Source: an uncultured Gemmatimonadota bacterium (GTDB lineage: Bacteria; Gemmatimonadota; Gemmatimonadetes; Gemmatimonadales; Gemmatimonadaceae). Taken from it: DNA of 64,000 nt. This document shows, in pieces, positions 11,377 through 62,040 of this stretch (position 1 is its first letter; each line of letters begins with the position of its first letter). The stretch lies in assembly GCA_902826615.1 (NCBI GenBank), contig CADEFN010000010.1:1-64000 (forward strand), given 5' to 3'. The notes beneath the pieces were generated by a model that saw only the letters and a program-made list of their open reading frames with translations, did no database searches and was not told the origin of the DNA. Position numbers and translations under genes: made by a program.

Positions 11377-14300
11377 TAGTGCGCCCCCTGCGCCGGCGCC
11401 GCAGCCGCGGCAGGAACCGCTGCCGCCGCCGAACCCGCGGCCGGATGGTTGACCTTCTTCAAGTAGACCACAGCGGTGAAGGTGTTGAGTTCTTCGAACA
11501 CGTGATAGCCGCGTGAATTCTCGACCATTTTCGCCACCGACCAGTTGGGGTCGGCTGCATCGCCAAACACAATCGCGCGCGACGGGCAGGCCTGCGCACA
11601 CGCCGTCGTGAACTCGTCAGGCTGGAGTTCGCGATTCTCGAGCTTCGCCAGATTCTCCGCCTCACGCACCCGTTGCACGCAGAAGGTGCACTTCTCCATC
11701 ACACCCTTGCCGCGCACCGTGACATCCGGATTGAGCTGCAGGTGCAGCGGTTCCGGGAAGGCGTACTGGCGACGTTCCTTCTCGCCGTAGCCGTGCCAGT
11801 TGAAGTAGCGGACCTTGTACGGACAGCCGTTGGAGCAGTACCGCGTGCCTACACAGCGGTTGTAGACCTGGACGTTGAGGCCGTCCGGCGCATGGTACGT
11901 GGCATATACGGGGCAGACGGGCTCGCACGGTGCGTTGCCGCAGTGCTGGCACATCATCGGCACGAACCGCGTGTCGAATTCGCTGGAGCCATCCTCGCCA
12001 CCTTCGAAGTACCGCTCGATGCGGAGCCACGCCATTTCGCGGCCCTTGAGGATGTTGGCGCCCGGGCGGGTATCCCACCCTGCCCCATCTGCCGTGTGGA
12101 ACGGCCGGAGCGAGCGACCCTGCCAGCGAGCACCGACGGTGGGAATGTTGTTCTCGGCGTAACACGCGGTCACACACGCCGAACAACCCGTGCAGCGGGC
12201 CAGGTCGATGGTCATCGCCCATCGACGTTTCGCCATCCCGCTCCAGTGATTGGGGTCGTACATCCCCTTGTCCTTCGACGTCGGGTCGCCCAAATCGCCC
12301 TGTGCATCATTGGCAACCGGAGACCGCAGACCCGGGAGGAACTCGTGGCTGGCGTCGCCCGGGAGTTCGTGGTGCTCGGTGGTTGCTCCCGAAACAAGCT
12401 CGGCCACCGTCAGCGCCTGACCGATACCGCGTCCATGCTGCCGCGCGGACCCTTCGAGCGTGACCAGCTGCGAATGTTCGGCCGCCTTGGCCACCCGCGC
12501 CTTGCCCTGCGTGAGTGCGAGGCCACCGGCCGCATTCCACGTGGCGCCTAACACGTCAAGCGCGTTGACGCCAAGATTTTCGGCGTACCGCCCGTACCTG
12601 GTGTGTCCCTGTCCGTGCGCAACGGCCACCGTATCGGGGCGAATACCCAGATAGATGTATGCCGGCGCCGTGACGGCGCCCGATGCCGTGGTGACCGTGA
12701 GATGATCACCCGCCGCAACACCAAGACGTTTGGCGGTGGCGGGATGAATCTCGACCCACGACTGCCACACAATCTTGGAGACCGGATCGGGGAGTTCCTG
12801 GAGCCAGGGCTTGTTGGCCCCTTCACCCATGCCTAACGTCGCGTGCGGGTAGGTGACCAGGAAGAACTCGCCGTCGCCACCCATCGCGCCGGCCGGCACC
12901 GACATCGGCGCCGCCGCACGACCCGTGATGTTACCGGAGACCATACCCTTGGGCAGTGCTGCCGTGAGTGCGGCCGACCCATACCGCGCGACCACGACGT
13001 CACGATACGACTTCTGCGGATATCGCGCGGCCAGCGTGGCGTCCTTCCTGGCCGCCATCATCATCACGTCGGCGCTTGCCCTGGTGTCGAAGATGCGGTC
13101 CATCACCGGCTGCTGGAGGCCGATGGTGCCTGGCGTCGCCTGTACATCGCCCCACGACTCCAGGGCGTGATCGTCAGGCAGCACGAGGTCGCACAACTCG
13201 CTGGTTTCGTCGGGATAGCTGGAGAACGAAACCTTGAACGGCACCTTGGCCATCGCCGCCGCAAAGCCCATCGCTTTCGGCGTGTCGTACGCGGGGTTCA
13301 CACCACGCACCATGAGGAGCTTGAGCGTACCGGCATTGGCGCGTTCAATGATGCCCTGCATGGCACCGACACCAACCGAGGTCCCGAAACCCGTGAGGGC
13401 TTCACCCGGCTTGACGGTGACGCCGACGTTGCCGGCTGCCTTGTTGATGTCGACACAGAGCCCCGCGATCACCCCGGCGCCCGGCGTCGATACACCCGAC
13501 ACCACCAGACTGGGCTTGGTGCCACGCAGTTCATCGACAATGCCCTGGAGCGTGGCTTCGGTGACACCGCTGGCCTGTGCGGCCGCTGCCACCGTCCCAC
13601 CATTCCCGCCAACTGCCGAAAGCAGCGCGCGGGCGATGGCTTCTTCACCACCAGGCTGGCAGGCGATCCATGTGTCGGCGTTGAGCCCGGTCAGCGACCG
13701 GCGAGCGCCGATGTAAATCACTCGCGGACCATCGGCGAGTTTGGCGCGGGCGTCGGCAAAGGCCATCTGCTGCGGCACGCTGGCGCCCCAGCCGTCGAGG
13801 TAGTCAGCGCCGATGGAGATGACGAGCTTCGCGCTGGCAAAGTCGAGTTTGGGCATCGCCACGCCGTAGCCAGCGAGATTGGCCGCTTCGACCGCGAGGT
13901 CAGCGCCCGGGTCGTATTGCAGGTGCGACCCGAAGCCGTAACCGCCGAGCCAGCCGTCGAGGTAACCGGCAAACGATCCGCTGTCGGGACCATTGATGAA
14001 GGCCGCGTTGGCGGCGGCCCCACGCGACTCGCCCAGTTTCTGAACAAGCGTGTCGATGGCCTTGTCCCACGTCGTGGGGACGAGTTTGCCGCCCTCGCGA
14101 ATCATTGGGCCGCGATAGCGATCGGGGTTGTACAGCCCTTGGAGGCCCGACTGACCCTTGGCGCAGAGCGCGCCCTTGTTGACCGGGTGATCGGGATTCC
14201 CCTCGAGCTTCACTGCCCGACCATCACGCACCTCGGCGATGATGCCGCAGGCCGCTGCACACTCTCGGCAGCTGGTGGTGTAGTAGGTCGAGACACCCGG

Positions 14301-15336: not shown

Positions 15337-16149
15337 TCACGCGCGGGTCCCCAGCATCGATAACACCGCACCCGCCACGTCTGGTTCCAGGAGGGCAAGG
15401 TTGGCCCTCGGGGTCTGCGTCAGTCGTAGGGGCCACATCGACCCGTAAACGAAATGATGGGGTCCAATGGTCCGGAAAAGGTGCGAGAGGTCGTCGGCCG
15501 GGGGCCCCCAAATCCACGAGAAATCGTACCGAACGGTGTTCCGTTCGGAGGGGGTGAGCCCCCAGTGGACCTCTTCTATCATCTCCCGGCTAGCGGCGGT
15601 CACGACGATGGTTGCCCCGGTTCCCGCCCGGGCAAGCTCGCGGACGTGCGCCGCAGTCAGGTCAGGCGTGCTGTCCAGCGGGTGCCGCTGCCGAAGATCC
15701 TCGAATCTGACCGTCAAGACTATAGAAAGGCTCAACTCCGCGCTCCGTCGCGCCAATTCAGCAAGCCTGCTATCCCCCGGCGCCATTCCCCAAAGTTGCG
15801 GGTAGGCTCGGATGGCCACCGCGCCGCGGTCGGCGAGTGCGATCAGGGCATCATGCCACCCGGGCCAGTCAGGACGGACGACCGGCACAGGAAGAAGCGT
15901 GGGCCGGTGCGGCGCGAGGCTCTTGAACAGTTCCTCGTTCCCCTCGGCGGGATCCCGGTGAAAAGCGGTGGGCAGGTGCCCGACCCATGCGCCTCGGCAC
16001 CCTTCACGGTCGAGCACACGTACCAGGACCTCGGGGTCGGGATGCGGCAGATGCCGCCACGGATACGAGCCAATGAAGGTGTTGAGGTCGAGCACGGCGG
16101 GAGACGGATGGCGGTTGGCAGACCGGAGACCAGACGCTACCTGTGTCAC
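15337..16149 (-). CDS. Amidohydrolase-like TIM-barrel protein
   Basis: About 270 residues, with a barrel-like alternation of strands and helices: opening strand V-L-D-L-N-T-F-I-G, A-V-A-I-R-A-Y-P-Q-L-W-G in the middle, and a closing strand H-H-F-V-Y-G-S-M-W-P near the end. It resembles Amidohydro_2-type hydrolases, but the first strand has DLNTF where metal-binding members have D-x-H-x-H, so the usual metal ligands appear to be missing. The start is uncertain: GTG at 16149 is used here, TTG at 16179 or GTG at 16095 are also possible. A second, more canonical relative lies at 48689-49513. Substrate unknown. Confidence 0.6.
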   Translation of the reverse strand: MTQVASGLRSANRHPSPAVLDLNTFIGSYPWRHLPHPDPEVLVRVLDREGCRGAWVGHLPTAFHRDPAEGNEELFKSLAPHRPTLLPVPVVRPDWPGWHDALIALADRGAVAIRAYPQLWGMAPGDSRLAELARRSAELSLSIVLTVRFEDLRQRHPLDSTPDLTAAHVRELARAGTGATIVVTAASREMIEEVHWGLTPSERNTVRYDFSWIWGPPADDLSHLFRTIGPHHFVYGSMWPLRLTQTPRANLALLEPDVAGAVLSMLGTRA

Positions 16150-48688: not shown

Positions 48689-49513
48689 CTAAAGTCCCGC
48701 AAATACTGCGGGGGGAAAAATGCGCTTGGCGTTCCTCCACCGGATGTCGGCGAGGTCGTCCGCGGACAGTCCGATCACCTCGAGCGCCCACAACTTGGCC
48801 AGCCCGGTGCACAACGTCAAATCAGCGCCCCATAACACCCGCTGGGCGCCAACCGCGGCCACCGCGCCATCGAGCATGCCCCGATCGACCCCACTCCCCG
48901 ACAGGTCGAGATAGACGTTAGGCACGTGGGCCACGGCGGAAAAGGTGTGCCGATAGTCCCCTCCCCCTCCGATGTGCGCCAGAATGAAATTCACATTCGG
49001 GTGCCGCCGCGCCAGCACGGCGAGATCAGCACCATCCGAAATGTCCTGATTCGGCCAGTGCCGGCGGCGGTGCTGCCAGATGTGATGCAGCACCGGGAAC
49101 CCATGGCGCTCGGCGCGTTCGATCAGTGGATCGAGCAGGGGGTCGTCACAGCGGCGAGCCGCGGCGAGCTTGAGTCCGATGGCACCAAGCGCCTGACAAC
49201 GATCCATCTCGTCGAGCGCAAAGTGCTGGTCGTTCGGGTTGACGGCGACGTAACTCCGGATGCGAGCGTCGCCACGCTGCAGTGCCAGCATGGCGTCGTT
49301 GGCCGCGACGGTATCAGCGGGAGACTGGAAGTACGTCGGAGACTTCACACCCCAGGTGCCCAGGATGGACGCCACGTGGTAACGGATGCCGATGCGGTCC
49401 CCCGCCTCGAGCCGCCGCCGGTTGAGGTGATCACCGTCGACCTTCACCCCACTCTGATAGAAGTGGGCGTGTATGTCGATGAGGGGCTCAGTGCCACCGA
49501 GTGGCGCGGTCAC
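48689..49513 (-). CDS. Amidohydrolase 2-type TIM-barrel hydrolase
   Basis: A 274-residue protein with the metal-binding first strand L-I-D-I-H-A-H-F (His13 and His15), further His in V-L-H-H-I-W-Q-H, F-I-L-A-H-I-G-G-G-G and the last-strand Asp in L-W-G-A-D-L. These are the ligands of Zn-dependent amidohydrolase-2/decarboxylase enzymes (ACMSD, 4-oxalomesaconate hydratase relatives). Substrate unknown. The GTG start at 49513 overlaps the aminotransferase stop by 4 nt (GTGA), making it the last gene of a five-gene coupled operon. A less canonical relative lies at 15337-16149. Confidence 0.87.
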   Translation of the reverse strand: MTAPLGGTEPLIDIHAHFYQSGVKVDGDHLNRRRLEAGDRIGIRYHVASILGTWGVKSPTYFQSPADTVAANDAMLALQRGDARIRSYVAVNPNDQHFALDEMDRCQALGAIGLKLAAARRCDDPLLDPLIERAERHGFPVLHHIWQHRRRHWPNQDISDGADLAVLARRHPNVNFILAHIGGGGDYRHTFSAVAHVPNVYLDLSGSGVDRGMLDGAVAAVGAQRVLWGADLTLCTGLAKLWALEVIGLSADDLADIRWRNAKRIFPPAVFAGL

Positions 49514-50856
49514 TCGCCCATCTCCTCCAGCACGCTGACGAAAGCCGACGACGCCACACGCTCCACTTCGAGCAGCACTTCGTCGCTGTCATGCGGCACG
49601 GCTGCATAGTTGTAGGCGCCACGCTTGAACAGCACCCCCAGCTCCACAGCGCGCCGCAGAAAGCGTGATTCAAAGACGGGGTCCTCAAAGCGCAGGAACC
49701 ACATGGGATCGACACCATGGACGGTCACACCGGGTGCCTGGCTGGCGGCGATCGCCTGCTCCATGGACTGCCGCATCTGCGCTCCCACACGCCAGAGAGT
49801 CGCGCACACATCCTCGTCATCAGCGGTGTAGCGATCGAGAACCGCTCCAACGGCGGCGAGCGACCCTGCCTCGCTTGCACTGGTGGACGAAATCCATGTC
49901 GTTGCCGCGGCATCCATCACGCCGGAGCGGCCCACCACCGCCGACACCGGGAAGCCGTTGGCCATGGCCTTGCCGAACACCGCCAGATCGGGCGACACAC
50001 CGGCGTATTGCTGGTAGCCGCCTAACGCCAACCGGAAGCCGGTCTTCATTTCATCAAAGATCAGCACCGCCCCTTTTGCTTCGCACGTGGCCTTTGCCTT
50101 GGCGATCCACGTCGGCGAGGGGAGTGCTTCCACCACCGGTTCCAGCAGGATTGCCGCAAGATCACTTCCGGCGCGAGCAATGGCAGCGTCGAGCGCGGCC
50201 TCGTCGTTGAACGGCACGCGGGTGACATACGCGCGGGCCTCGGGAAGAATGCCCGGCCCCTCATTGGCCCAGTCGTGCCACCCGAAGTACCCGCACGCCA
50301 CCACATGCTTGCGCCCTGTAGCGGCGCGGGCAATACGAAGAGCCGCACTCACTCCTTCGGCGCCTGTCTTGAGAAAGCGCACCCGTTCGGCGCAGGGAAT
50401 CACGTCGCACAACCGTTCGGCGATTTCCACCTCCAGTACATGGGAAAGCCCGCTCACGGGTCCCTGCGCGATCGCGTTGACCACCGCGCGTGTGACACCG
50501 TCGTCGCCGTAGCCCAGACTCACCGAGCCGAGGGCCATGGTGCAATCGATCAGATCCTGCTCAGCCGCGGTGAAGAGTGAACAGCCGCTGGCACGCAGAT
50601 AGTGCGCGGCCCCCGGCTCCCCTGCCTCGCCGTACAAGGCAGCGGGACGTTTGCTTCCGGTCGAGGCCCCGCCCGGAATCACCGCCGCCGCCCGACTTCT
50701 CCAGTCACCGAGGATGGCATCTTCGTCCCCGACATGTTCGGGAATGCCTTCCTCGTCGTCGGCGTCGACCTCCGAGTCCTCGGTGACCTCTTCCGGGGTC
50801 TCGTCAGGCGCTGCGGGCGCTTTCTCCTGTTTGCGGCCAAAGAAGTTGAATGCCAT
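49510..50856 (-). CDS. Class III PLP aminotransferase, glutamate-1-semialdehyde aminomutase-like
   Basis: A 448-residue protein. The first 45 residues are an acidic extension (E-E-V-T-E-D-S-E-V-D-A-D-D-E-E) not seen in HemL. The fold type I aminotransferase core then starts at A-V-I-P-G-G-A-S-T-G. PLP-binding residues are Asp268 in I-F-D-E-M-K-T-G-F-R and Lys296 in F-G-K-A-M-A-N-G-F-P. HemL-like enzymes make 5-aminolevulinate, but many relatives in sugar or secondary pathways use the same fold, and the operon context (lyase, hydrolase, transport) fits such a role better than haem synthesis. It overlaps the amidohydrolase by 4 nt and starts 12 nt after the SPOUT methylase gene. Confidence 0.88.
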   Translation of the reverse strand: MAFNFFGRKQEKAPAAPDETPEEVTEDSEVDADDEEGIPEHVGDEDAILGDWRSRAAAVIPGGASTGSKRPAALYGEAGEPGAAHYLRASGCSLFTAAEQDLIDCTMALGSVSLGYGDDGVTRAVVNAIAQGPVSGLSHVLEVEIAERLCDVIPCAERVRFLKTGAEGVSAALRIARAATGRKHVVACGYFGWHDWANEGPGILPEARAYVTRVPFNDEAALDAAIARAGSDLAAILLEPVVEALPSPTWIAKAKATCEAKGAVLIFDEMKTGFRLALGGYQQYAGVSPDLAVFGKAMANGFPVSAVVGRSGVMDAAATTWISSTSASEAGSLAAVGAVLDRYTADDEDVCATLWRVGAQMRQSMEQAIAASQAPGVTVHGVDPMWFLRFEDPVFESRFLRRAVELGVLFKRGAYNYAAVPHDSDEVLLEVERVASSAFVSVLEEMGE

Positions 50857-50868
50857 TGCCGTTACGGG

Positions 50869-51687
50869 TCAGGTGTTCTGGTCAGTCGCCGCCTGCACCG
50901 CCGCGGCCTCAGCTTCATCGAAAGTCACGGGTGGCAGTCCGGCCATGCCGCGATACCGGTTCATGGCGCGCACCACCTCGATCCACATCGCCCGCACCAG
51001 CATGTGTTCGCGGGTATCGAGCTGCATGCGATACGCGAATGACCTCGCGCTGCGCATGATATGAGCGCGGAATCGCGTTTTGAAGAACTCGACGGCCTCC
51101 AGCGCCCGCTCCTGATCGACAAAAAGGCGCTCCATTTCCGCCGAGGTGGCCGGAGGAGCGTCTTTCCGCGGGGGCGCCAGCTCGCGGGTGGCGTCGCCGG
51201 CCGCCATGTGCAGCTCGTACAGTGCCAGCAACACCGCCTGCGCCAGGTTGAGCGACGCATGATCGGTGGTGGGAATGGTGACGACGGTATTGGCCCGGTC
51301 GAGTGCTTCGTTAGGCAACCCGTCATCCTCGCGACCGAACATCAGGACCACCGTTCCCTCATGGGCACGCCCCAGGAGAGGAGCGGCCAGTTCGCGTGGG
51401 GTGGTCAGCTCCCACTTCACCCTGCGTTTTCGCGCGGTGAAGGCCGCCACGAATACCGCGTCGCCGAGCGCTTCGTCGAGGGTGTCCACATCACGAATCC
51501 GCTCGATGACATCGAGGGTGTCGTGAGCGATGCCCTCCAGACGGTAGGGGCTGTACGGCACCGGGCGGATGAGCACCAGGTCGCGCACGCCGAAGTTCTT
51601 CATCGCGCGCACAGTGGCGGCGATGTTGATGGGGTTCTGTGGCTCATACAGCACCACACGGACGTTATGCAGGAGCGATTCAGCCAT
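50869..51687 (-). CDS. trmJ: SPOUT RNA 2'-O-methyltransferase, TrmJ-like
   Basis: A 272-residue protein with the SPOUT (TrmH/TrmJ) knot motifs: V-V-L-Y-E-P-Q-N-P-I-N-I-A-A-T-V-R-A-M-K-N-F-G at the start, F-G-R-E-D-D-G-L-P-N-E and S-L-N-L-A-Q-A-V at the AdoMet site. A helical extension of about 90 residues follows, as in TrmJ, which methylates the ribose of tRNA position 32. Start: ATG 51687, overlapping the heparinase stop by 8 nt. An RNA methylase inside this metabolic operon is unexpected; it may simply be carried by coupling. Confidence 0.9.
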   Translation of the reverse strand: MAESLLHNVRVVLYEPQNPINIAATVRAMKNFGVRDLVLIRPVPYSPYRLEGIAHDTLDVIERIRDVDTLDEALGDAVFVAAFTARKRRVKWELTTPRELAAPLLGRAHEGTVVLMFGREDDGLPNEALDRANTVVTIPTTDHASLNLAQAVLLALYELHMAAGDATRELAPPRKDAPPATSAEMERLFVDQERALEAVEFFKTRFRAHIMRSARSFAYRMQLDTREHMLVRAMWIEVVRAMNRYRGMAGLPPVTFDEAEAAAVQAATDQNT

Positions 51688-54394
51688 CCACAATCTCGAA
51701 AGCAAGCATGCGGCGGGGATCCTCGCGGTCACCACGCAGGTACACCCATTCCTCCTGCGTCCCGGTCGCCACGAGCTGACCGCGCCGTCGCTCGCGGTCG
51801 GGGGAAATCTCGTTGATCACCACGTTCAACATGAAGTGGCGGTCAATCCCCAGCCCGCTGGCCCCCCGTGGAAAGCCACAACGGATCCGGTACCCGTCCT
51901 GCGTTAGGCGCCAGGACGCCGACAGCGGGGGTACCGCCCCACCCGCCGGACGCGGACTCACCCGCACCACCGGCGCCTCCTCCGGTACCAGAAGCCAGCT
52001 GGCGTAGGCATGGGCATCGGGGAGCGACAGGTAGAGCTGCACACCATCGGAGTTGATGTCGGGATCCTCATTGTCGAGGAGGTTTTCCCCGCGGCGCGGC
52101 GCAAAAACCAGGGGGGACTTCCGTACGTGGAGGTCGATGTCCACCGTCTCGCGCCCGGCGGCGACCCTGAGGGTGGCTTCGGGCGCACCAGCGTCGGCCC
52201 ATGCCAGTTCTGACCGCCGGTAGTGCCGCTCGCCGAGCTCCATGGCAAAGGCACGCCCTGCCGTGAGGATGTGACTGGGTCCCGACTCGCTCTTGGATTC
52301 GGTCCGTTCCGTCGCCGGGGTCGTCGATCGCCTCCCGGCCAAGGTTCGCTCCGTCAGCTGCTCGCCACGGTGCTCACGGATCTCCCACTCGGAGGCACCG
52401 GTCAGGTGTTGGTCATGTCCATCCGACCGCTCAACCACCAGGGTGCTTCCATCGTCGAACGCGCGCCGCACGAGGCCATCCCAGGCCCACACCGAGCGGA
52501 ACCACCCCTGACGGCCCACCCCTCGGACAAAGACAAAACGCCGGCTGCCAAGCCCCGGTGGACCCGGAGCGACGGCGCGATACCAGTCGTACCCATCGCT
52601 GCTCGACATCCAGGCACGCAAGACTTCTCCGCCCCGCCGCACCTCAACCTCGTCGTTGTTCGAACCAATGGTGCTTTCCACGTCGCGCAGGAACTCGCCG
52701 CCGCTCCCCGCAGACTCCACATCGTGCTTCACCGGCGACCAGGTCGGCCGCCTGACGAGGTCCGAGTCCACGTGCCACGGCAGCTCAACGGTCACCTGAT
52801 CGGCGCCGGCCCAGCGCAACTCATCAATCAGATAGCCGTCACTCACCACCACACGACGTGTCATGCGTGTGCGCCCCGGGACAATCTCGAACTCGGCTTC
52901 GATCCACCCGAGGTTGTCTTGTTCTTCCCACGCCTTCAGCACACCTGCGCCATATGGCTGAGAGCGTCCGTTGACCAGTGGGGCGTTATGCGCCCACGTG
53001 GATCGATACCAGAAAAGCGCCCGCTCGACATACGAGCCGGTGCCGGGGTCTTCGAGAAAACGCGACGAGTCCTTCACGAGCCAGAGATTGAGCCGATCGG
53101 GATGCCCGTGTCCCCCACCTGGCGCCCCGTAGTCGAGCGCGACATACACCCGCCCCCGTTTGCGCCGGAAGACGGCCAGCCCCTGGTGCTCGAGGTGCAC
53201 GGATTGCGGCTCTCGTCGCTCGAGTACCGGAAGTGTGGCCCGGGCATGGAGCAGCGACTTCCAGCCTAACGATTCCCGCGTGAGCCGAGCCGGTGGTGTG
53301 TTCCGCTCCGCCTCGGCGGTGCTGACCGCTCTTCCGGTATCACCCGGCTCGGCGTCGGGACGATAGAGCTCGGCGAGCGCCCCGAGGAGTCGTGGATCAT
53401 CGCCGCGCGCGAGCCCCAGTTCGCACGACTCTGCATAACGCCACTGCCGCAGCGACACCGCGTACTGCGAGTCGCGCCTCGCCGGAAAGGTGAAATCAGG
53501 CAATGCAGTGAGAAACGGCAGTGCAAAGGCTTCGGTAAACCTCTCCACGAGTGGCGCTGGCACCTCGTACCCCGATCCCTCGGCCAGCAACACACCGTAC
53601 CACAACCCGCGATGCGCGAACTGATGATAGTTCTCCCCTTCATACCATGAGCCGTCGGGGAGCAACCCGGCGGTCAGATGGGTGATGAGCCCCGACCGCC
53701 CCTCGATCACCTTTCGCACCACGGACTCGCGTCCGCACAAACGAGCCACAGCAAGCATGGCCGCGTTGTTCCACACCTGCCGGTTGGACGACCCCTCGTC
53801 GTACTGCGCAATGAGCTCCGCGCTCGGAATCAGGAGCCGCTCGCGTACGCGGGCACCGATGCTGCTGGTGTCCCCTCCCATTTCGAGCAGATCAACCGCG
53901 ACCGCAAGCTGGAGGGTCCAGATGGACTCCAGATAGGTGCTGAAAAATGGGCGTGTCGGACCCAGCACATTGTCGCTGTTGGGATAGCGCAGATACGCGT
54001 CGGCGCAGGCGTCGAGAATACGGATCGCCAGCCCCTGGCCCTGCGCGTCGCCGGTGAGCGCAAACAATACTGCGCCATGCACGGCCCGTTCGGCCAGCCA
54101 GAGCTGATAGTTCATGATCCACCAGCGATAGTGCTCCTCGTCAGTGTACGTCTCACCGCAGGTGGGGCACTGATGCGCTTTCGGACTGTAGGGGTCGAAG
54201 GAGAGCAGGACGCCATGCGCCGGGCAACGCCCTCCCACGCGGGTCAGTCGCGCCTTTTCCGGTGGCAGCCGTATCTCCGCTGCCGCGAGGAGCGGGGCGA
54301 GGTCCTGGTGCAGCGACGCCACCAACGGAGCGAGCGGCCCGGTGGCGGCTGCACGTCGTGCTCCGAGCGCTGATGTCGCGAGAAGAAGACTCAT
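51680..54394 (-). CDS. Heparinase II/III-family polysaccharide lyase-like protein
   Basis: A 904-residue protein. The N-terminal (alpha/alpha) toroid part includes a small Cys site (C-P-A-H-G and C-P-T-C-G-E-T-Y) and the catalytic-region sequence N-Y-H-Q-F-A-H-R-G. The C-terminal part is the Heparinase_II/III beta-sandwich, with A-P-G-G-G-H-G-H-P-D-R-L-N-L. The last 200 residues are an extra beta-rich region (DOMON/CBM9-like by its W-x-L-T-x-D-G-Y-R-I-R-C end). No clear signal peptide is seen. It probably cleaves uronic-acid-containing glycans; the substrate is not known. It overlaps both neighbours (4 nt with the solute-binding gene, 8 nt with trmJ). Confidence 0.87.
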   Translation of the reverse strand: MSLLLATSALGARRAAATGPLAPLVASLHQDLAPLLAAAEIRLPPEKARLTRVGGRCPAHGVLLSFDPYSPKAHQCPTCGETYTDEEHYRWWIMNYQLWLAERAVHGAVLFALTGDAQGQGLAIRILDACADAYLRYPNSDNVLGPTRPFFSTYLESIWTLQLAVAVDLLEMGGDTSSIGARVRERLLIPSAELIAQYDEGSSNRQVWNNAAMLAVARLCGRESVVRKVIEGRSGLITHLTAGLLPDGSWYEGENYHQFAHRGLWYGVLLAEGSGYEVPAPLVERFTEAFALPFLTALPDFTFPARRDSQYAVSLRQWRYAESCELGLARGDDPRLLGALAELYRPDAEPGDTGRAVSTAEAERNTPPARLTRESLGWKSLLHARATLPVLERREPQSVHLEHQGLAVFRRKRGRVYVALDYGAPGGGHGHPDRLNLWLVKDSSRFLEDPGTGSYVERALFWYRSTWAHNAPLVNGRSQPYGAGVLKAWEEQDNLGWIEAEFEIVPGRTRMTRRVVVSDGYLIDELRWAGADQVTVELPWHVDSDLVRRPTWSPVKHDVESAGSGGEFLRDVESTIGSNNDEVEVRRGGEVLRAWMSSSDGYDWYRAVAPGPPGLGSRRFVFVRGVGRQGWFRSVWAWDGLVRRAFDDGSTLVVERSDGHDQHLTGASEWEIREHRGEQLTERTLAGRRSTTPATERTESKSESGPSHILTAGRAFAMELGERHYRRSELAWADAGAPEATLRVAAGRETVDIDLHVRKSPLVFAPRRGENLLDNEDPDINSDGVQLYLSLPDAHAYASWLLVPEEAPVVRVSPRPAGGAVPPLSASWRLTQDGYRIRCGFPRGASGLGIDRHFMLNVVINEISPDRERRRGQLVATGTQEEWVYLRGDREDPRRMLAFEIVDG

Positions 54395-55986
54395 GGCGCC
54401 AAACTCCAGGACGCCAGCGTCACCAGCTCACCCCGCAGATCCATCTGCACACCGTGCAGTCGCCGACTCCGCCCCTGCACCCCGCGCGCATGATAGATCC
54501 ACGCCACCGGAGCCGCGGCGGCGAGGTGCTGCTGAATCGCACGCCACTGCGCCCGTTCATCGTCAGGAGTGGTGGCGCGGCGCGCCGCCGCAAAAAGCCG
54601 GTCGAGGTCGGTGTCATGGTAGGCCGCGTAGTCGAGCGCCCCGCCCGCCTGCGAACTCTCGAACATCGCCGCCAGGTGTGAGAGCGAGACATCTCCGGGA
54701 ATCCCCGTGATCAGCGCATCGAACGGTTTGTCGGTGGCTCGCGCATCGCGCAGGAAGGCGCCGAGCTCCATCTGTTGCACCTCGGCGAGAACTCCCAGGG
54801 CACGCAGGTCAGCCTGCACCAGCTGTTCGATGGCGTTGTCGCCGCTCCCAACTGTTCGCAACGTGAGGCGCAGCGGCACACCATTCCGCTGGCGCACACC
54901 ATCGGCGCCCAGACGAAAACCGGCCTCATCGAGCAGTGCAGCAGCGGCCGGTTCTGGAGCCGCCTCTGCGAGCAGCGGGTGACCGGGGGGCACGGGACCA
55001 TTGGCTGCCACGCCAAGTCCCGAGAGTGCCACATCAACAATGCGTTGCCGGTTGATGGCCGCGGCGAGTGCACGCCGCACCCGCAGATCGCTGAAGGGAG
55101 CGCGGGTGGTGTTAAAGACCAGCGCGTTAGTGAAGGCCACCGGATAGGTCACAAGCGCCAGCGCCGGATCACCTTCGGTGAGGGCCGCCATCGAGGGGGA
55201 GATGCCGGCCAGATCGAGGTCGCCACTCGCGAGCCCGGCAAACTTCGTCGTCGGTTCATCCACCACCGCAATCACCAGGCGAGGGATCTGCGCTGGCCCG
55301 CCAAGTTCGGCGGGAAAGGTGGAGTCGCGCTCAAAAGTCCAGCTCTCCCGTGCACGGCGCTCCACAAAGCGATAGGGGCCGTTGCCGATCGGCTGGCGCG
55401 CAAACGCGTGCGTGCGCAGCTCCGCGCGCGGCACCGCTGCGAGGAGATGCACCGGTGCGATGGGCAGCTCGCACAACACCAGCGGAAAGCGGCTCTGCGG
55501 CTCGGAGAACCTCACCACGACCGTCGAGTCGTCTGGCGCCTCGGTGGCGGTGATGGTCGCCAGATCTCCACGCCGAAAGAAACCGGTCACCGGATCGCGC
55601 GCAGCATCAATCGTGAATGCGACATCCCGTGCGGTGGTGGGCGTCCCGTCGTGCCACCGGAGCGACGGCACCAGATGCATTGTCAGCGAGGTGTTGTCAG
55701 GCGACCACTCCCAGCCCCGCGCGAGGTACGGCTGCGGCGTGAGCGCCGTGTCGTAGCGCGCCAGGGTGACAAAGAGGGCATATCGCTGCACCTGCCGAGC
55801 CAGCGGGTGAACCGTGACCAGTGGGTTGGCACTCTCGAGGTCAGCGCCTGACGCGACGACGACTGTTGTGCGGTCTCGTGAGGCGGGTGCGCAGGCGGCA
55901 GTCGCGAGGAGCAGACCGCCAACCAGCGACAGGGCTGGCCACACGCAGCGACGCCGCGGTTGCCGAAGGAAGCGAAGTGGGGCCAT
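54391..55986 (-). CDS. ABC transporter substrate-binding lipoprotein, family 5 (DppA/OppA-like)
   Basis: A 531-residue lipoprotein; lipobox T-A-A-C at about residue 32. The two-lobe family 5 pattern is visible: P-Y-L-A-R-G-W-E-W-S-P-D-N-T at the first lobe, F-T-I-D-A-A-R-D-P-V, and R-V-R-R-A-L-A-A-A-I-N-R-Q-R-I. These proteins bring peptides, opines, or in some cases oligosaccharides to Dpp/Opp permeases. The two permease genes are immediately divergent. The first gene of the minus-strand operon; the ATG at 55986 is used because it gives the lipoprotein signal, while the longer frame reads through the permease gene on the other strand. No ATPase gene is in the window. Confidence 0.92.
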   Translation of the reverse strand: MAPLRFLRQPRRRCVWPALSLVGGLLLATAACAPASRDRTTVVVASGADLESANPLVTVHPLARQVQRYALFVTLARYDTALTPQPYLARGWEWSPDNTSLTMHLVPSLRWHDGTPTTARDVAFTIDAARDPVTGFFRRGDLATITATEAPDDSTVVVRFSEPQSRFPLVLCELPIAPVHLLAAVPRAELRTHAFARQPIGNGPYRFVERRARESWTFERDSTFPAELGGPAQIPRLVIAVVDEPTTKFAGLASGDLDLAGISPSMAALTEGDPALALVTYPVAFTNALVFNTTRAPFSDLRVRRALAAAINRQRIVDVALSGLGVAANGPVPPGHPLLAEAAPEPAAAALLDEAGFRLGADGVRQRNGVPLRLTLRTVGSGDNAIEQLVQADLRALGVLAEVQQMELGAFLRDARATDKPFDALITGIPGDVSLSHLAAMFESSQAGGALDYAAYHDTDLDRLFAAARRATTPDDERAQWRAIQQHLAAAAPVAWIYHARGVQGRSRRLHGVQMDLRGELVTLASWSLAP

Positions 55987-55995
55987 TATCCGCGC

Positions 55996-56976
55996 GTGAC
56001 GCCCACTCTGCGCCGCGCCTTCGAGTCGGCCCTGCTCTTCTGGCTCGTAGTGACGCTCACCTTTTGCCTCGTTCACCTCGCTCCTGGTGATGCGACGGAT
56101 CTCCTCGTCCCGCCGGGCGCCAGCGCAGCCGACATCGAACGGCTGCGCAGCTCCTTTGGGCTCGATGCGCCGATGTGGCAGCAATATGTGCGGTGGACGT
56201 CTCGTGTGCTGGCGGGAGATCTGGGGACCTCTTTCGCCACCGGAGAAGCTGTTGGCGACGTGTTGCGCCGAGCTCTGCCAATCACCCTTGGCCTCGGCCT
56301 GGTCTCGCTCGCCCTCACCTTCCTCATCGGTACTGCGGTCGGTCTCTGGCAGGCACAACACGCTGGCTCTCGAGGAGACCGGCTGGCGACCACGATTGGC
56401 ATTACGCTCTTTGCCGCCCCCAGCTTCTGGCTTGCGCTCGCCCTGGTCGCGGTCTTTACCTATGTCGCCTCGCGATCGGGCTGGCCGGTCTGGCTTCGCC
56501 TCCCGGCGATGGGCGTGGAAACCCCGGCGTCTACCCTGAACGGACTCGCGCGCCTCAGTGACATCGCGCGGCATGCCGTCCTCCCCGTGACCGTGCTCTC
56601 GCTCATTGGAGCGGCCGGCCTCGCTCGTTATGCCCGGGCGACAGCGCTGGAGCTCCTGCACAGCGACTGGGTGCGCACGGGTCGAGCCAAGGGTCTCTCG
56701 TCAGGCGCGGTCATGCGGCGACATGTACTGGCCAACGCGCGGCCGCCACTCATCGTCCTGCTCGCGCTCTCCCTGCCAGGCACCGTGGCAGGCTCGGTCT
56801 TTGTCGAGAGTGTCTTTGCGTGGCCCGGGATGGGACGCACCATGCTGGCCTCCATCGGCGCGCGCGACTACCCCGTGCTGATGGGCGTCACCCTGGTGTA
56901 TGCCGCCATCGTCATCGTGGCCAACTGGCTGTCGGATGTTGCCACGGTGTGGGCCGATCCCCGGCGTCGGTCATGA
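55996..56976 (+). CDS. ABC transporter permease, DppB/OppB-like
   Basis: About 326 residues with six helices. Typical start R-R-A-F-E-S-A-L-L-F-W-L-V-V-T-L-T-F and the A-P-G-D motif; the inner-loop EAA region is Y-A-R-A-T-A-L-E-L-L-H-S-D-W-V-R-T-G-R-A-K-G-L. It pairs with the DppC-like gene that overlaps it by 4 nt. A GTG at 55996 is taken as the start; an ATG at 55960 is possible but would overlap the divergent solute-binding gene. The gap to that gene is only 9 nt, so its promoter must lie within coding sequence. Confidence 0.9.
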   Translation: MTPTLRRAFESALLFWLVVTLTFCLVHLAPGDATDLLVPPGASAADIERLRSSFGLDAPMWQQYVRWTSRVLAGDLGTSFATGEAVGDVLRRALPITLGLGLVSLALTFLIGTAVGLWQAQHAGSRGDRLATTIGITLFAAPSFWLALALVAVFTYVASRSGWPVWLRLPAMGVETPASTLNGLARLSDIARHAVLPVTVLSLIGAAGLARYARATALELLHSDWVRTGRAKGLSSGAVMRRHVLANARPPLIVLLALSLPGTVAGSVFVESVFAWPGMGRTMLASIGARDYPVLMGVTLVYAAIVIVANWLSDVATVWADPRRRS

Positions 56977-57812
56977 CGCGGGGTGCGCGCCTCGCGGTGT
57001 GGGCATTGGCGCTGACCGTCGTCGCCAGCATTATCGTGCCCGCCCTCGCCCGCCGGGATCCACTGGCCATCGAGGACGTGATCGCACGCCGTCTGCTCCC
57101 TCCCCTTGCCACCAATCCTGATGGCGGCTGGCACCTGCTCGGGACCGACCGGTTCGGTCGCGACCTGTTCATCCGTACGCTGCTCGCCGCACGCATCTCC
57201 CTGTTTGTCGGCCTGGCGGGGTCGGTGCTCGCCGGGGTGCTCGGCGTCCTCATTGGCGCGGTGAGCGGGTGGAGCGGGCGCGCCATCGATCGGGCGCTGA
57301 TGAGCCTCACGGACACCTTCCTCGCCATTCCGCGTCTGGTGCTGCTCCTCTTGTGTGTCGCGCTGTGGTCCCCCGGTCTGGTCACGGTCGTCGTGGTCCT
57401 GGCCGCGACAGGCTGGATGAGTGTGGCACGGCTCGTCCGCAGTGAGGTGCAAGGTCTCCGGCATACCGCGTTTGTCGAAGGGGCACGCGCCCTGGGCACC
57501 CTCGAGGTCCGCACCTTGCTCCGTCACGTCCTGCCTAACGCGCTCGGCCCCGCACTGGTGGCCGTCACACTAGGTGTGGGCAACGCCATCCTGCTCGAGA
57601 GTGGGCTCGCCTTTCTGGGCCTGGGCGTGCAGCCTCCAACGCCGAGCTGGGGCAACATGATTGCCGGCGGCCGTGACATTATCGTGACCGCTCCCTGGGT
57701 CGCCCTGGCACCCGGGCTCGCCGTGATCGCCACCGTGCTGTTATGCACCGTGGTTGGCGACGCATTCCATCAGCGATTGCTGGGACACGCGCGGCCTCCA
57801 GTCGACCCCTGA
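56973..57812 (+). CDS. ABC transporter permease, DppC/OppC-like
   Basis: A 279-residue protein with six helices. The family sequence H-L-L-G-T-D-R-F-G-R-D-L-F lies after TM1, and the inner-loop EAA motif is V-E-G-A-R-A-L-G at about residue 165, with R-H-V-L-P-N after it. The ATG at 56973 overlaps the previous stop (ATGA). Together with the upstream gene it forms the membrane pore of a dipeptide/oligopeptide-type importer; the ATPase subunits must be encoded elsewhere or shared. Confidence 0.92.
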   Translation: MTRGARLAVWALALTVVASIIVPALARRDPLAIEDVIARRLLPPLATNPDGGWHLLGTDRFGRDLFIRTLLAARISLFVGLAGSVLAGVLGVLIGAVSGWSGRAIDRALMSLTDTFLAIPRLVLLLLCVALWSPGLVTVVVVLAATGWMSVARLVRSEVQGLRHTAFVEGARALGTLEVRTLLRHVLPNALGPALVAVTLGVGNAILLESGLAFLGLGVQPPTPSWGNMIAGGRDIIVTAPWVALAPGLAVIATVLLCTVVGDAFHQRLLGHARPPVDP

Positions 57813-58958: not shown

Positions 58959-59417
58959 ATGCGCTTCCGCACTCTGCTCCTCGCCACGCTCGCCCTCTCG
59001 GCGATTGCGGCCTGCAAGAAGAAGGAAGAGGCACCCGCCGCAGCGGTGACACCACCGCCGCCACCGCCCCCTCCAGCTCCAACCGTCAGCAGCATCGAAC
59101 TGGGCAAACACATCGGACCCAACAAACGGGTCACCGATACCACCAGCACCTTCGGCGTTCGCGATACTTTGTACCTCGCCGTGCTCTCGGAGAACACCAC
59201 CGCGGGTTCGAGCCTCGTGGCCAAGTGGACCTTCCAGACGGGACAGACGGTTGACTCCGCGTCCCAGGTGATTGCTGCCCCCGATGCCGCCAATCCGGTG
59301 ACGGTCACCGAGTTTCACATCAGCAAGAAGACCGCGTGGCCGGCCGGGAAGTACAAGGTCGAGGTCATGCTCGACGGCGCCTCCAAGGGCGTCCGCGATT
59401 TCGAGATCAAGAAGTAG
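58959..59417 (+). CDS. Lipoprotein with Pro-rich linker, function unknown
   Basis: A 152-residue exported protein. The lipobox is A-I-A-A-C (Cys19). A basic/acidic segment and a run of prolines (eight in a row) form a linker, followed by a single beta-sandwich-like domain of about 110 residues with T-L-Y-L-A-V-L-S-E-N-T and W-P-A-G-K-Y-K-V-E-V-M-L-D-G at its end, resembling an all-beta immunoglobulin-like fold. The last 11 nt overlap the convergent mannosidase gene. Eight nt separate it from the LysM gene. Confidence 0.78.
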   Translation: MRFRTLLLATLALSAIAACKKKEEAPAAAVTPPPPPPPPAPTVSSIELGKHIGPNKRVTDTTSTFGVRDTLYLAVLSENTTAGSSLVAKWTFQTGQTVDSASQVIAAPDAANPVTVTEFHISKKTAWPAGKYKVEVMLDGASKGVRDFEIKK

Positions 59418-62040
59418 CGTCGAGTCTCAGCGTCACCACCGCGTGCGGCCCCACATGGAGCTGCACGCGGTTCTCGTTTGTGGCGAGCGCACCTGACACC
59501 GTCTCATCCAGACGCGCGAGCCAGGCACGGGCAAGCCCTGGCAACGCACACTGCGCCACAACGTGTGAGCCCGTGACGTTGGCAAAGCGCACGATGATGC
59601 CGCGTCCATCTTCCGCCGGCTTGCATGCCAACAGCCGCAGACCGCGCCCCATCAGGGTCACGCCCTCCATTTCACCAATGCTGCCATCCTGTAGGGTGAT
59701 GCCCCGCACGGGAAGCAACACATCCTCTGCCGTGCGCTCGATGGCGTCACGTGTGGCAGGGATATCCGGACCATGCAGCAACACCGCGAGCGTCGCTTGG
59801 AAAGGCCCCTGACATTGCGCGAGTGGCGTGGCCACCGGCCAGCCGGCGTGCCCGGCACGCTCCGGCAAGGACGATCGGCTCAGCTCTCCAACGGCACGAA
59901 GCAGCGTGACCGCAACGTCTCCATCGGGCGTCGCCTCGTACTCGGCGAGTCCATCCGAGAAGACACTCACCCCGCTCGATGCACTGAACAGGGAGACGTA
60001 TCGATGCAGAGGCGCCGTCGGCGGGATGATCTCCACATCGCCAGCCTCGGGCGCCGCCACGCCTGACAGCCGCGTCACCGGACCAAAGGCCGCATCGGCC
60101 AGGTGGGTGCTCGACGCATGGCGCGTGCGAATCACCGCACGGAGTCGGTAGTCTGTCAGGCGGTTGTCGCCGCGGAGGCTCAGCCGTATCCACGGTGCAT
60201 CGGCATCGAGCGAAACGATCACCTTCACGTCTATCGTCGCCGCCGCATGTGTCGTGAGCGCGCCCGTCGCCTGCCCGATCTCGCGTTCGGCGACGGGCAC
60301 GCGAAAGAGCAGCTCCAGCGAGGCGCGAAGCGGGCCACGCTCAGCCACTCGCACTCGCACAATCCTCCCCATCTGGGTGGTGCCGGGCACGGCAGAGTGC
60401 GTGTAGAGATCACCTCGTTCTCCTTGCGACTCAAAACCGAGCACATCGGTGAGTGTACGACCGTCGCGCGAAATGCAGAGGCCATCGGTCTCACTGCACC
60501 ACACCTGCAGCCGCCCATTGTCCAGTACTCCGCCGACGACCTTCACCCGGTGAGGAGGGCGGCGTCGCGAGGCACGTGGGACGATGGGCAGTGTGCACAC
60601 TCCAAGCGGCGGCAGCGACTCGGTGTACACCAGCGCCCGCACTCGCTGCACCAGGAAGTTGCGCGGATACCGACGGGTGTGTTCGTCGCGCACAAAGACC
60701 TGCTCGCTGGACAGGACCTGCATGGGTAGCGCCTGCTCTCCCACCGACACCGCGACCGGCTCGAGCGCGGGCAGATCACTCCCCGACCCCGGCCCCACTG
60801 CCACACGCCCCAGCGCGTAATCAATCTCGACTTCGGCCACACCATTGCGACTGCGCGCCGCCGGATTGGTCAGCACCACCACGGGGTGCGTCGCGTCTGC
60901 TGTCAACCGTTTGGGAGACACGAGGGCGCCGAGGGTGCGATGCCGGAGTTCCGTCGCCAGCTCCTGCGCGCGGCGCATCCGGTCGTCCATGGCGAGCGCG
61001 ACACTATCGACCGAACAGCCGCAGAGCGTGTCATGAGGGTGGCTTTGCAGCACCAGACGCCACGCCGCACTGAGCCCTGCCTCCGGCGTGTTGACCCCTC
61101 GCCACGTCGCCAGCGCCGCCCATGGCTCCACCTCGCCAACGAGGAGCCGTTCCACCCCGGCGTTGGCGCGCTTCTGGGCCGCGCGTGTCGCGAGTGTGCC
61201 CGGCAGGGCCCAGACGTATCCCGGCGAGGCCCGCAACTCTCCCGACACCACCGGCGCCCGGTGCGAGCTGGCAAATTCGGTGAACGCTCGTGCAAAACCC
61301 TGCAGACCCTGCATCACAGCTCGGGCAGGTGCCACGACCTCGGAGAGCGCAGTCCATGCCGTAGTCGCCTGCTCCTGCAGCGCGTGATGGTCCGCGCCGT
61401 TGAGCACAAGCAGCTCACCCGACGTGCTGCGTTCCCCAAGCACCCGTTGCAGCTCGTCCCAGCGGAGTCGCGCGGCGGCCGCATCGGTGGGCAAGTTTGA
61501 GCCGAATTCGTAGCCCGATGGCGGCAAGTGATACAACAGCACTTCAGTGCCGTCGGCTGCTCGCCAGCGAGCCATGTCTCCAGCAGGCCAACCTCGCCCG
61601 CCATATCCCCGCCAGACCACTGCCAGCGGAAACCCGAAGCCCGCGGCAAGTATGGGCGCCACTGCAGGATGCCCAAAGGTGTCGGGGCAATACAACACCG
61701 CCGGCGGAGTGGCCCCGAAAACGCCTACCGCCTTCCGGCCCGCGAGGAGGTTGCGAACCAGGGCCTCACCAGAAGGAATCTGATTGTCGGCAAGCACATA
61801 CCAGGGCCCGGCCTCAATCACCCCCGATTGGAGCGCCGCGGCCAGCGAACTCTGCTGCCCGGAAGCCCAGGAGAGCAGGTCCTCGAGGATCACCCCCTGC
61901 CCGTCGAGCAAAAAGGGATGACCAGACCCGACCACCTCGGCAACCAGGTCCACCAGTCCCACGCGGAACTGCTCGGCGGACTTGTACCATTCGCGGTCCC
62001 AGTGTGTGTGCGGGACCAGGTGCACGCGTGGGTGGCGCAA
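59407..62040 (-). CDS. Glycoside hydrolase family 38 alpha-mannosidase
   Basis: An 877-residue enzyme. The GH38 start H-T-H-W-D-R-E-W gives Zn ligands His11 and Asp15, and the nucleophile Asp120 is in Y-C-P-D-T-F-G-H. A third set is L-N-G-A-D-H-H. The alpha-mannosidase middle domain (S-H-P-H-D-T-L-C-G-C) and the C-terminal beta-sandwich (N-R-L-T-D-Y-R-L-R) follow. Retaining alpha-mannosidases of this group release mannose from mannans or glycoconjugates. There is no signal peptide, so it is likely cytosolic. It is divergent from sodA. Confidence 0.94.
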   Translation of the reverse strand: MRHPRVHLVPHTHWDREWYKSAEQFRVGLVDLVAEVVGSGHPFLLDGQGVILEDLLSWASGQQSSLAAALQSGVIEAGPWYVLADNQIPSGEALVRNLLAGRKAVGVFGATPPAVLYCPDTFGHPAVAPILAAGFGFPLAVVWRGYGGRGWPAGDMARWRAADGTEVLLYHLPPSGYEFGSNLPTDAAAARLRWDELQRVLGERSTSGELLVLNGADHHALQEQATTAWTALSEVVAPARAVMQGLQGFARAFTEFASSHRAPVVSGELRASPGYVWALPGTLATRAAQKRANAGVERLLVGEVEPWAALATWRGVNTPEAGLSAAWRLVLQSHPHDTLCGCSVDSVALAMDDRMRRAQELATELRHRTLGALVSPKRLTADATHPVVVLTNPAARSRNGVAEVEIDYALGRVAVGPGSGSDLPALEPVAVSVGEQALPMQVLSSEQVFVRDEHTRRYPRNFLVQRVRALVYTESLPPLGVCTLPIVPRASRRRPPHRVKVVGGVLDNGRLQVWCSETDGLCISRDGRTLTDVLGFESQGERGDLYTHSAVPGTTQMGRIVRVRVAERGPLRASLELLFRVPVAEREIGQATGALTTHAAATIDVKVIVSLDADAPWIRLSLRGDNRLTDYRLRAVIRTRHASSTHLADAAFGPVTRLSGVAAPEAGDVEIIPPTAPLHRYVSLFSASSGVSVFSDGLAEYEATPDGDVAVTLLRAVGELSRSSLPERAGHAGWPVATPLAQCQGPFQATLAVLLHGPDIPATRDAIERTAEDVLLPVRGITLQDGSIGEMEGVTLMGRGLRLLACKPAEDGRGIIVRFANVTGSHVVAQCALPGLARAWLARLDETVSGALATNENRVQLHVGPHAVVTLRLDATS

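Follow-up and report, generated by a model that had tools for sequence, protein, structure and literature searches.

A conserved Gemmatimonadales gene cluster encoding a PL17-like lyase, a class III aminotransferase and paired amidohydrolase-fold proteins, with a possible role in oligosaccharide import and catabolism

Lyases of family PL17 use one tyrosine as base and another as acid, and an Asn-His pair conserved in the family neutralises the +1 carboxylate (PMC12336832). AibH1H2, an amidohydrolase-related dinuclear monooxygenase, is a heteromer of two PF04909 proteins of which one is catalytic (PMC7782822, PMC10811679), and the haloarchaeal glycosaminoglycan (GAG) route of PMC13260240 is a PL8 route; a search of that paper for an amidohydrolase or a class III aminotransferase gave no mention of either. 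Here we report on a gene cluster in a 64,000-nt stretch of DNA (the window) from an uncultured Gemmatimonadota bacterium (contig CADEFN010000010.1), where genes for a solute-binding lipoprotein (SBP), a heparinase-II/III-type lyase (HEP), a TrmJ-type methylase (TrmJ), a class III aminotransferase (AT) and a PF04909 amidohydrolase-fold enzyme (AH1) follow one another, and where a second amidohydrolase-fold protein (AH2) is encoded at some distance. No described pathway with this gene set was found among the open-licence papers searched. The five operon open reading frames (ORFs) were translated and scanned against Pfam and NCBIfam; all five families exceed the Pfam cut-offs, and all five ORFs lie on the minus strand where an earlier note on the window had placed them. 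Its gene junctions were likewise confirmed from the sequence, with a 4-nt ATGA overlap between SBP and HEP, an 8-nt overlap between HEP and TrmJ, a 12-nt gap between TrmJ and AT, and a 4-nt GTGA overlap between AT and AH1.

The cluster is a conserved operon and its conservation exceeds what chance would give. With evenly divided confidence, we read it as an order-wide operon of Gemmatimonadales-type Gemmatimonadota for the import and catabolism of an oligosaccharide, its core not being assigned. We do so because HEP and AT are present in exactly the same genomes, the gene order is conserved and a GH38 glycosidase gene remains linked even where its position has moved; because HEP keeps the PL17 tyrosines and metal-site residues while the metal set and K115 of AH1 are invariant; and because haloarchaea carry AH1-AH2 fusions with a class III aminotransferase nearby and, in two cases, an importer.

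AT and HEP were searched for in 149 genomes of the class, and AH1 in a draw of 395 genomes of the phylum. AT scored 250 to 990 bits in 34 genomes, with the next matches at 190 bits or lower; the best matches other than the window protein itself show 42-67% identity, and all 34 genomes fall in three families of the window's own order. HEP is present in the identical 34/149 genomes, each gene being single-copy, and in the part common to both draws AH1 occurs in the same 34 genomes plus one (G063). Overall, AH1 was detected in 149/395 genomes of the phylum, none of them beyond the three families at an E value of 1e-20 or better (Fisher test for AT versus AH1, p about 8e-33, which is descriptive only as the genomes are related). 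HEP and AT share a contig in 34/34 genomes; they abut in 10 of these (-19 to 60 nt) and are separated by 670-1002 nt in the other 24, and in the loci examined this larger gap is occupied by TrmJ. The order HEP-(TrmJ)-AT-AH1 is kept across the three families, with ATGA-type overlaps, and recurs in divergent relatives (identity to the window proteins 35-65% for HEP, 41-67% for AT and 52-75% for AH1). AT orthologs showed the same gene order in the wide stretches examined; the 12 weaker matches examined (L070-L081) never did. Among the best 80 matches of a contig scan meant to reach beyond the phylum, nearly all records were Gemmatimonadota, with one Candidatus Kuenenia and one 'bacterium', so that bacterial relatives at greater distance may exist. 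The mixed set of uptake, lyase, aminotransferase and amidohydrolase genes with a glycan theme, as proposed in the earlier note, is accordingly a conserved operon in the order, and relatives keep its genes together: only TrmJ and one genome with AH1-AH2 alone depart from the pattern in the compared set. That unrelated housekeeping genes have merely come together by chance is hardly credible, for although TrmJ is a housekeeping gene that can leave the group, HEP, AT and AH1 are not, and they are gained or lost together, which contradicts this explanation for all members except TrmJ.

TrmJ is most probably the genome's housekeeping copy, riding in the operon transcript. At an E value of 1e-20 or better it is found in 115 of the 121 genomes of the order, nearly always in single copy; 77 of these 115 also have AH1 in the compared lists and 38 do not. 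Where both are present, 44 genomes have TrmJ on the same strand and no more than 3 kb off, 7 have it at about 10 kb, and 26 have it elsewhere or on another contig. Its distribution across the order, independent of the cluster, led us to reject TrmJ as a pathway member, and the suggestion that an RNA methylase belongs to the pathway mix has to be dropped given the single-copy housekeeping TrmJ in the 38 cluster-less genomes and its location elsewhere in the 26. The window protein scores 158 bits against TIGR00050 (cut-off 167), a cut-off exceeded in 47 of the 121 genomes. We regard this as a clear case of a housekeeping tRNA methylase gene inside a catabolic operon, which warns against reading function from operon neighbours alone.

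The five-gene extent given earlier is incomplete; of the overall interpretation the conserved operon stands, and the methylase as a member and the gene list do not. Genes for OppB and OppC permeases, GH38 and AH2 belong to the unit as well, and relatives add genes for a GHMP kinase and DapA-like, dihydroorotate dehydrogenase (DHOD)-like and MR/MLE genes. In relatives the larger unit reads GH38-OppC-OppB, divergent from SBP-HEP-(TrmJ)-AT-AH1, then AH2, which lies directly 3' of AH1 in nearly all of them, usually with a 4-nt overlap. AH2 is cut off from the window cluster by a rearrangement of ~32.6 kb: the two genes are separated here by positions 16278-48643, an arrangement seen only in the window among the loci examined, and AH2 adjoins alternative-complex-III-like genes, its same neighbours in relatives. 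The intervening segment holds genes for a DUF4397 protein, an AI-2E transporter, a PAS histidine kinase and response regulators, NhaA, P-type ATPases and a 2781-aa cyclic-glucan-synthetase-like protein; no mobile-element gene was present among nine of its proteins scanned.

Several variants of the unit occur. A GHMP sugar kinase gene lies between SBP and HEP in many members of one family (f2) and in another (f3), and in part of f2 the DapA-like, DHOD-like and MR/MLE genes come after AH2. GH38 remains linked in two arrangements, either adjoining OppC or beyond the MR/MLE gene; against the mannosylglycerate hydrolase model the window GH38 protein scores 286 bits (cut-off 1138). In a few genomes (L099, 10013-14244; L168, G063) the cluster is reduced: HEP and AT are missing, and AH1-AH2 is followed by a gene for a secreted-looking GH3 protein with a PA14 domain. 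Part of f2 also has, next to the DapA-like and MR/MLE genes, a family (L061, 4375-5544; L065, 4749-5879) with weak likeness to dihydroorotate dehydrogenase (PRK07565, E 1e-5), the L061 copy being without a Pfam match. At locus L155, a glucosamine-6-phosphate-isomerase-like gene (1-498) is located near OppC, and a DapA-like and NAD-epimerase-like pair (11624-13677) is convergent with AH2.

In the PDB the HEP profile finds its best matches in PL17 alginate lyases, along two stretches (9irq, E 2e-25), and its C-terminus matches a CBM9 domain (1i82, E 2e-4). The catalytic tyrosines of PL17 correspond to Y256 and Y455 in the alignment, and the PL17 metal-site residues, whose metal role we presume, to H431, D449 and H469; both tyrosines and the metal-site residues are invariant in the orthologs. 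On alignment grounds the HEP core appears PL17-lyase-like, and it should not be filed as PL17. By inspection, the N-termini of HEP orthologs are unlike signal peptides. In two f3 genomes (L057, G099; G087) HEP appears as separate N- and C-terminal matches with the middle unaligned, which suggests a divergent middle part in that family.

The pyridoxal phosphate (PLP) lysine of AT, K296, is invariant in the alignment and sits in the motif GKAxANGFP. AT scores 178 bits against the hemL model (cut-off 527), and a better match exists in the same genome (G000:C9:113474; 334 bits, also below 527), so AT is not the only HemL candidate of the genome, a finding by which the earlier note had proposed to judge its reading. 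In four aligned glutamate-1-semialdehyde aminomutase (GSAM) structures a 13-residue insertion follows YxGxxD, which we take to be the HemL gating loop and which is missing from the AT profile. Moreover, AT has Asn416 at the position of the Glu after a late Tyr in these structures, presumably E406 of the Synechococcus enzyme. The score below cut-off and the absent insertion rule out AT as HemL, and as judged from these comparisons it is a putative enzyme with a HemL-like fold, not HemL. Its structural relatives include aminoglycoside C-6' aminotransferases. As noted earlier, AT is extended at its N-terminus by an acidic stretch (about residues 1-48); this starts with MAFxxFFxR and occurs in only some members of the window's family, the others being without it. 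The best NCBIfam match of AT is PRK06209, and the broad class III subfamily to which it belongs is also found beside NeuB-type genes (Methylomagnum), two observations that favour a biosynthetic operon in which AT would put an amino group on a sugar, AH1/AH2 would process it further and HEP would edit the polymer, a division of tasks like that of nonulosonate or exopolysaccharide clusters. We consider this improbable: no glycosyltransferase, nucleotidyltransferase or flippase is encoded among the conserved members, the importer is conserved, and GH38 and the lyase are degradative.

AH1 matches PF04909 with 83.7 bits (cut-off 26.4), and H15 and H17 (HxH), K115, H144, H180 and D231 are invariant in every sequence, the archaeal ones included. 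Binuclear amidohydrolases have a carboxylated Lys at the end of the fourth barrel strand, and K115 terminates this strand in the AlphaFold model of AH1 (pLDDT 90; closest PF04909 barrels at Z 21-24). The AH2 model (pLDDT 92.8) matches PF04909 barrels at Z about 19-21, AibH1H2 being among the matches. In AH2, DVNxF/DLNTF replaces the HxH motif and its conserved residues are D3, R96, E132, D133, R135 and D191; the window copy is without a Pfam match. Pairing of AH1 with AH2 is supported by the overlap of the genes and by their fusion in archaea. By sequence motif only, the place where the AibH2/PtmU3 His/carboxylate diiron set would have its Glu is taken in AH1 by H180, and the His of its D-x-x-H is missing three residues after D231. 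An AibH1H2-type oxygenase, suggested by the fold match and the paired genes, was rejected on this ligand motif and on the absence of a Rieske gene from the conserved cluster.

A search of 72,556 plasmids with AT, AH1 and HEP placed haloarchaea on top for AT, and the records with AH1 relatives were haloarchaeal too, except for one weak match. AH1 and AH2 are fused as one protein of 558-565 residues in Haloprofundus, Natronosalvus, Halosolutus, Natrononativus and Halomontanus, that is in 5/5 haloarchaeal plasmids holding a full-length relative. The AH1 profile scores 106-128 bits on the N-terminal half of the fused protein against at most 15 on the C-terminal one; with the AH2 profile the C-terminal half reaches 97-116 bits and the N-terminal half no more than 4. 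A class III aminotransferase gene lies 0.4 to 28 kb from the fusion in 5/5 plasmids, and a Dpp-type ATP-binding cassette (ABC) importer is visible in the Haloprofundus and Natrononativus stretches (2/5). There was no HEP homologue among the proteins tested from three haloarchaeal stretches, which instead hold beta-helix/GH28-like proteins, sulfatases, a DegT aminotransferase, Gfo/Idh/MocA and RidA, and tblastn with HEP against the plasmids gave only generic heparinase matches of 20-25%. In the tree the window-type AT forms one clade (99/99) and the haloarchaeal AT another (100/99), and the two are not joined; direct orthology of the haloarchaeal and Gemmatimonadota AT is not borne out. In Halomontanus (L176, 23714-27280), genes for a tagatose-bisphosphate aldolase subunit, a BadF-type ATPase and a sugar-phosphate isomerase are found about 6-11 kb from the fusion and AT, which have a SIS-domain gene on their other side; these neighbours hint at amino-sugar metabolism.

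The importer parts at the cluster are SBP (SBP_bac_5) and two BPD permeases. SBP carries, by inspection, the lipobox LATAAC; its best NCBIfam match is nikA with 120 bits (cut-off 393), far below the cut-off, so that no substrate is assigned. The divergent arrangement of SBP and permeases is the same in relatives. The SBP ATG (minus strand) and the OppB GTG (plus strand) stand head to head with 9 bp between the start codons, and in a relative (L061, about 15568-15571) the two predicted starts use one common CATG. If these heuristic start assignments hold, there is no promoter room between the two genes, and the promoters would have to lie within the gene opposite or the transcripts be leaderless. 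The ATPases are encoded only elsewhere: the sole OppD/F pair of the genome, at 365-367 kb of contig C4 and beside another OppBC pair, may energise the cluster importer.

Under import and catabolism, SBP with OppB/OppC, powered by OppD/F, would bring in a short carboxylated glycan, from which GH38 would take off alpha-mannosyl caps in the cytoplasm. HEP, with its fold and tyrosines, would cut uronosyl linkages by beta-elimination in the same compartment. AT would then add an amino group to the released sugar or remove one, deamination for catabolism being the likeliest course, and metal-dependent AH1, complexed with metal-free AH2, would hydrolyse or decarboxylate the product; in relatives, the GHMP kinase, DapA-like aldolase and MR/MLE enzyme may lengthen the route. 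More tentatively, it is possible that AT and the AH1/AH2 complex are an undescribed cross-domain core breaking down an amino or acidic sugar, with AH2 as an obligate metal-free subunit, and that unrelated depolymerases feed it: in Gemmatimonadota an intracellular lyase of PL17-like type, in haloarchaea systems with beta-helix proteins and sulfatases. The acidic- or amino-sugar theme of the earlier note is still one that we infer.

Several observations weigh against oligosaccharide catabolism. The presence counts are phylogenetically non-independent, and a sister relation of the haloarchaeal AT to the window-type AT is not borne out, the haloarchaeal AT grouping weakly with other sequences in the tree. 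In contrast to a typical polysaccharide-utilisation locus, the cluster encodes neither an outer-membrane nor a secreted depolymerase and the genome has no PF07940 protein besides HEP; the importer is without its own ATPase gene in the cluster. A single intracellular-looking lyase with no secreted depolymerase, an Opp-type importer lacking its own ATPase and a cluster that is widespread and single-copy in one order would also suit a salvage or remodelling route for a glycan that the cell makes itself, in which the importer would retrieve fragments of the envelope polysaccharide for recycling by HEP, GH38, AT and AH1/AH2, much as in muropeptide recycling. We judge this rather unlikely, as multiple apparent losses within the family suggest a dispensable function and the haloarchaeal relatives beside sulfatases and beta-helix proteins suggest external glycans. 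A further point against oligosaccharide catabolism is that the PL17 Asn-His pair is N204-R205 in HEP, with R205 invariant in 21 sequences. This His-to-Arg replacement, the peptide/nickel type of SBP and permeases, and the MR/MLE gene of relatives, whose nearest models are menC/N-acylamino-acid racemase-like, agree with HEP being inactive or a sugar-binding scaffold in an operon whose importer takes up an amino acid conjugate, peptide-like or opine-like, for degradation through AT and AH1/AH2; the invariant catalytic tyrosines and metal-site residues of HEP, and GH38 and the GHMP sugar kinase as conserved neighbours, make this very unlikely in our view.

Table 1. Features of the cluster in the window, with strand and main basis of assignment.
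Feature	Position	Strand	Basis
AH2, amidohydrolase fold without metal ligands, putative AH1 partner	15337..16095	-	gene order in relatives, alignment, model
AH1, PF04909 amidohydrolase-fold enzyme	48689..49513	-	Amidohydro_2 E 2.5e-23
AT, class III PLP aminotransferase	49510..50856	-	Aminotran_3 E 5.5e-34
TrmJ-type SpoU methylase	50869..51687	-	Pfam SpoU methylase E 1.5e-23; TIGR00050 E 2.7e-46
HEP, heparinase-II/III-type (PL17-like) lyase, C-terminal CBM9-like domain	51680..54394	-	Hepar_II_III_C E 2.8e-13
SBP, SBP_bac_5 (Opp/Dpp/Nik-type) solute-binding lipoprotein	54391..55986	-	Pfam E 7e-73
OppB/NikB-type permease, divergent from SBP	55996..56976	+	BPD_transp_1 E 2.6e-37
OppC/NikC-type permease	56973..57812	+	family scan
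GH38 alpha-mannosidase-like glycosidase	59407..62040	-	Pfam E 9.6e-20

If import and catabolism is the correct reading, an order that is widespread in soil and freshwater but poorly cultured has a glycan route whose gene set is now defined and can be tested. The cluster would also provide a subfamily of PL17-like lyases in which the neutraliser residue has changed, and an enzyme paired with a metal-free protein, an association to which gene fusion in a second domain of life lends support.

In comparison with known systems, the PL17 exo/oligo-alginate lyases (Alg17C, AlgL17, AlyA3) share with HEP the heparinase-type toroid and sandwich, the aligned tyrosine pair and the metal-site residues, whereas HEP has Asn-Arg for Asn-His and a C-terminal CBM9-like domain; relative to the route from alginate to 4-deoxy-L-erythro-5-hexoseulose uronate (DEH), the downstream enzymes here are others and the genome encodes no second PF07940 lyase. 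HemL and the aminoglycoside C-6' aminotransferases have, like AT, the class III PLP fold with the PLP lysine in GKAxANGFP, and AT differs from HemL in lacking the roughly 13-residue insertion after YxGxxD and in having Asn416 for Glu. The PF04909 decarboxylases and hydrolases (ACMSD, gamma-resorcylate decarboxylase, LigJ/LigY) have the barrel fold and HxH-H-H-D residues of AH1, which is about 15-23% identical to them in structural alignments and, unlike them, has a near-constant metal-less partner in AH2. AibH1H2 resembles AH1/AH2 in its two neighbouring PF04909 genes, but its AibH2 diiron ligands (D25, H27, H211, E265, D337, H340) are unmatched by AH1 and the conserved cluster is without a Rieske ferredoxin gene. 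Finally, the haloarchaeal plasmid clusters share with the window the AH1-AH2 homologue (theirs fused), a nearby class III aminotransferase and, in two stretches, a Dpp-type importer; they differ in having beta-helix/GH28-like proteins, sulfatases and the other proteins named above in place of HEP, of which there was no homologue among the proteins tested from three stretches.

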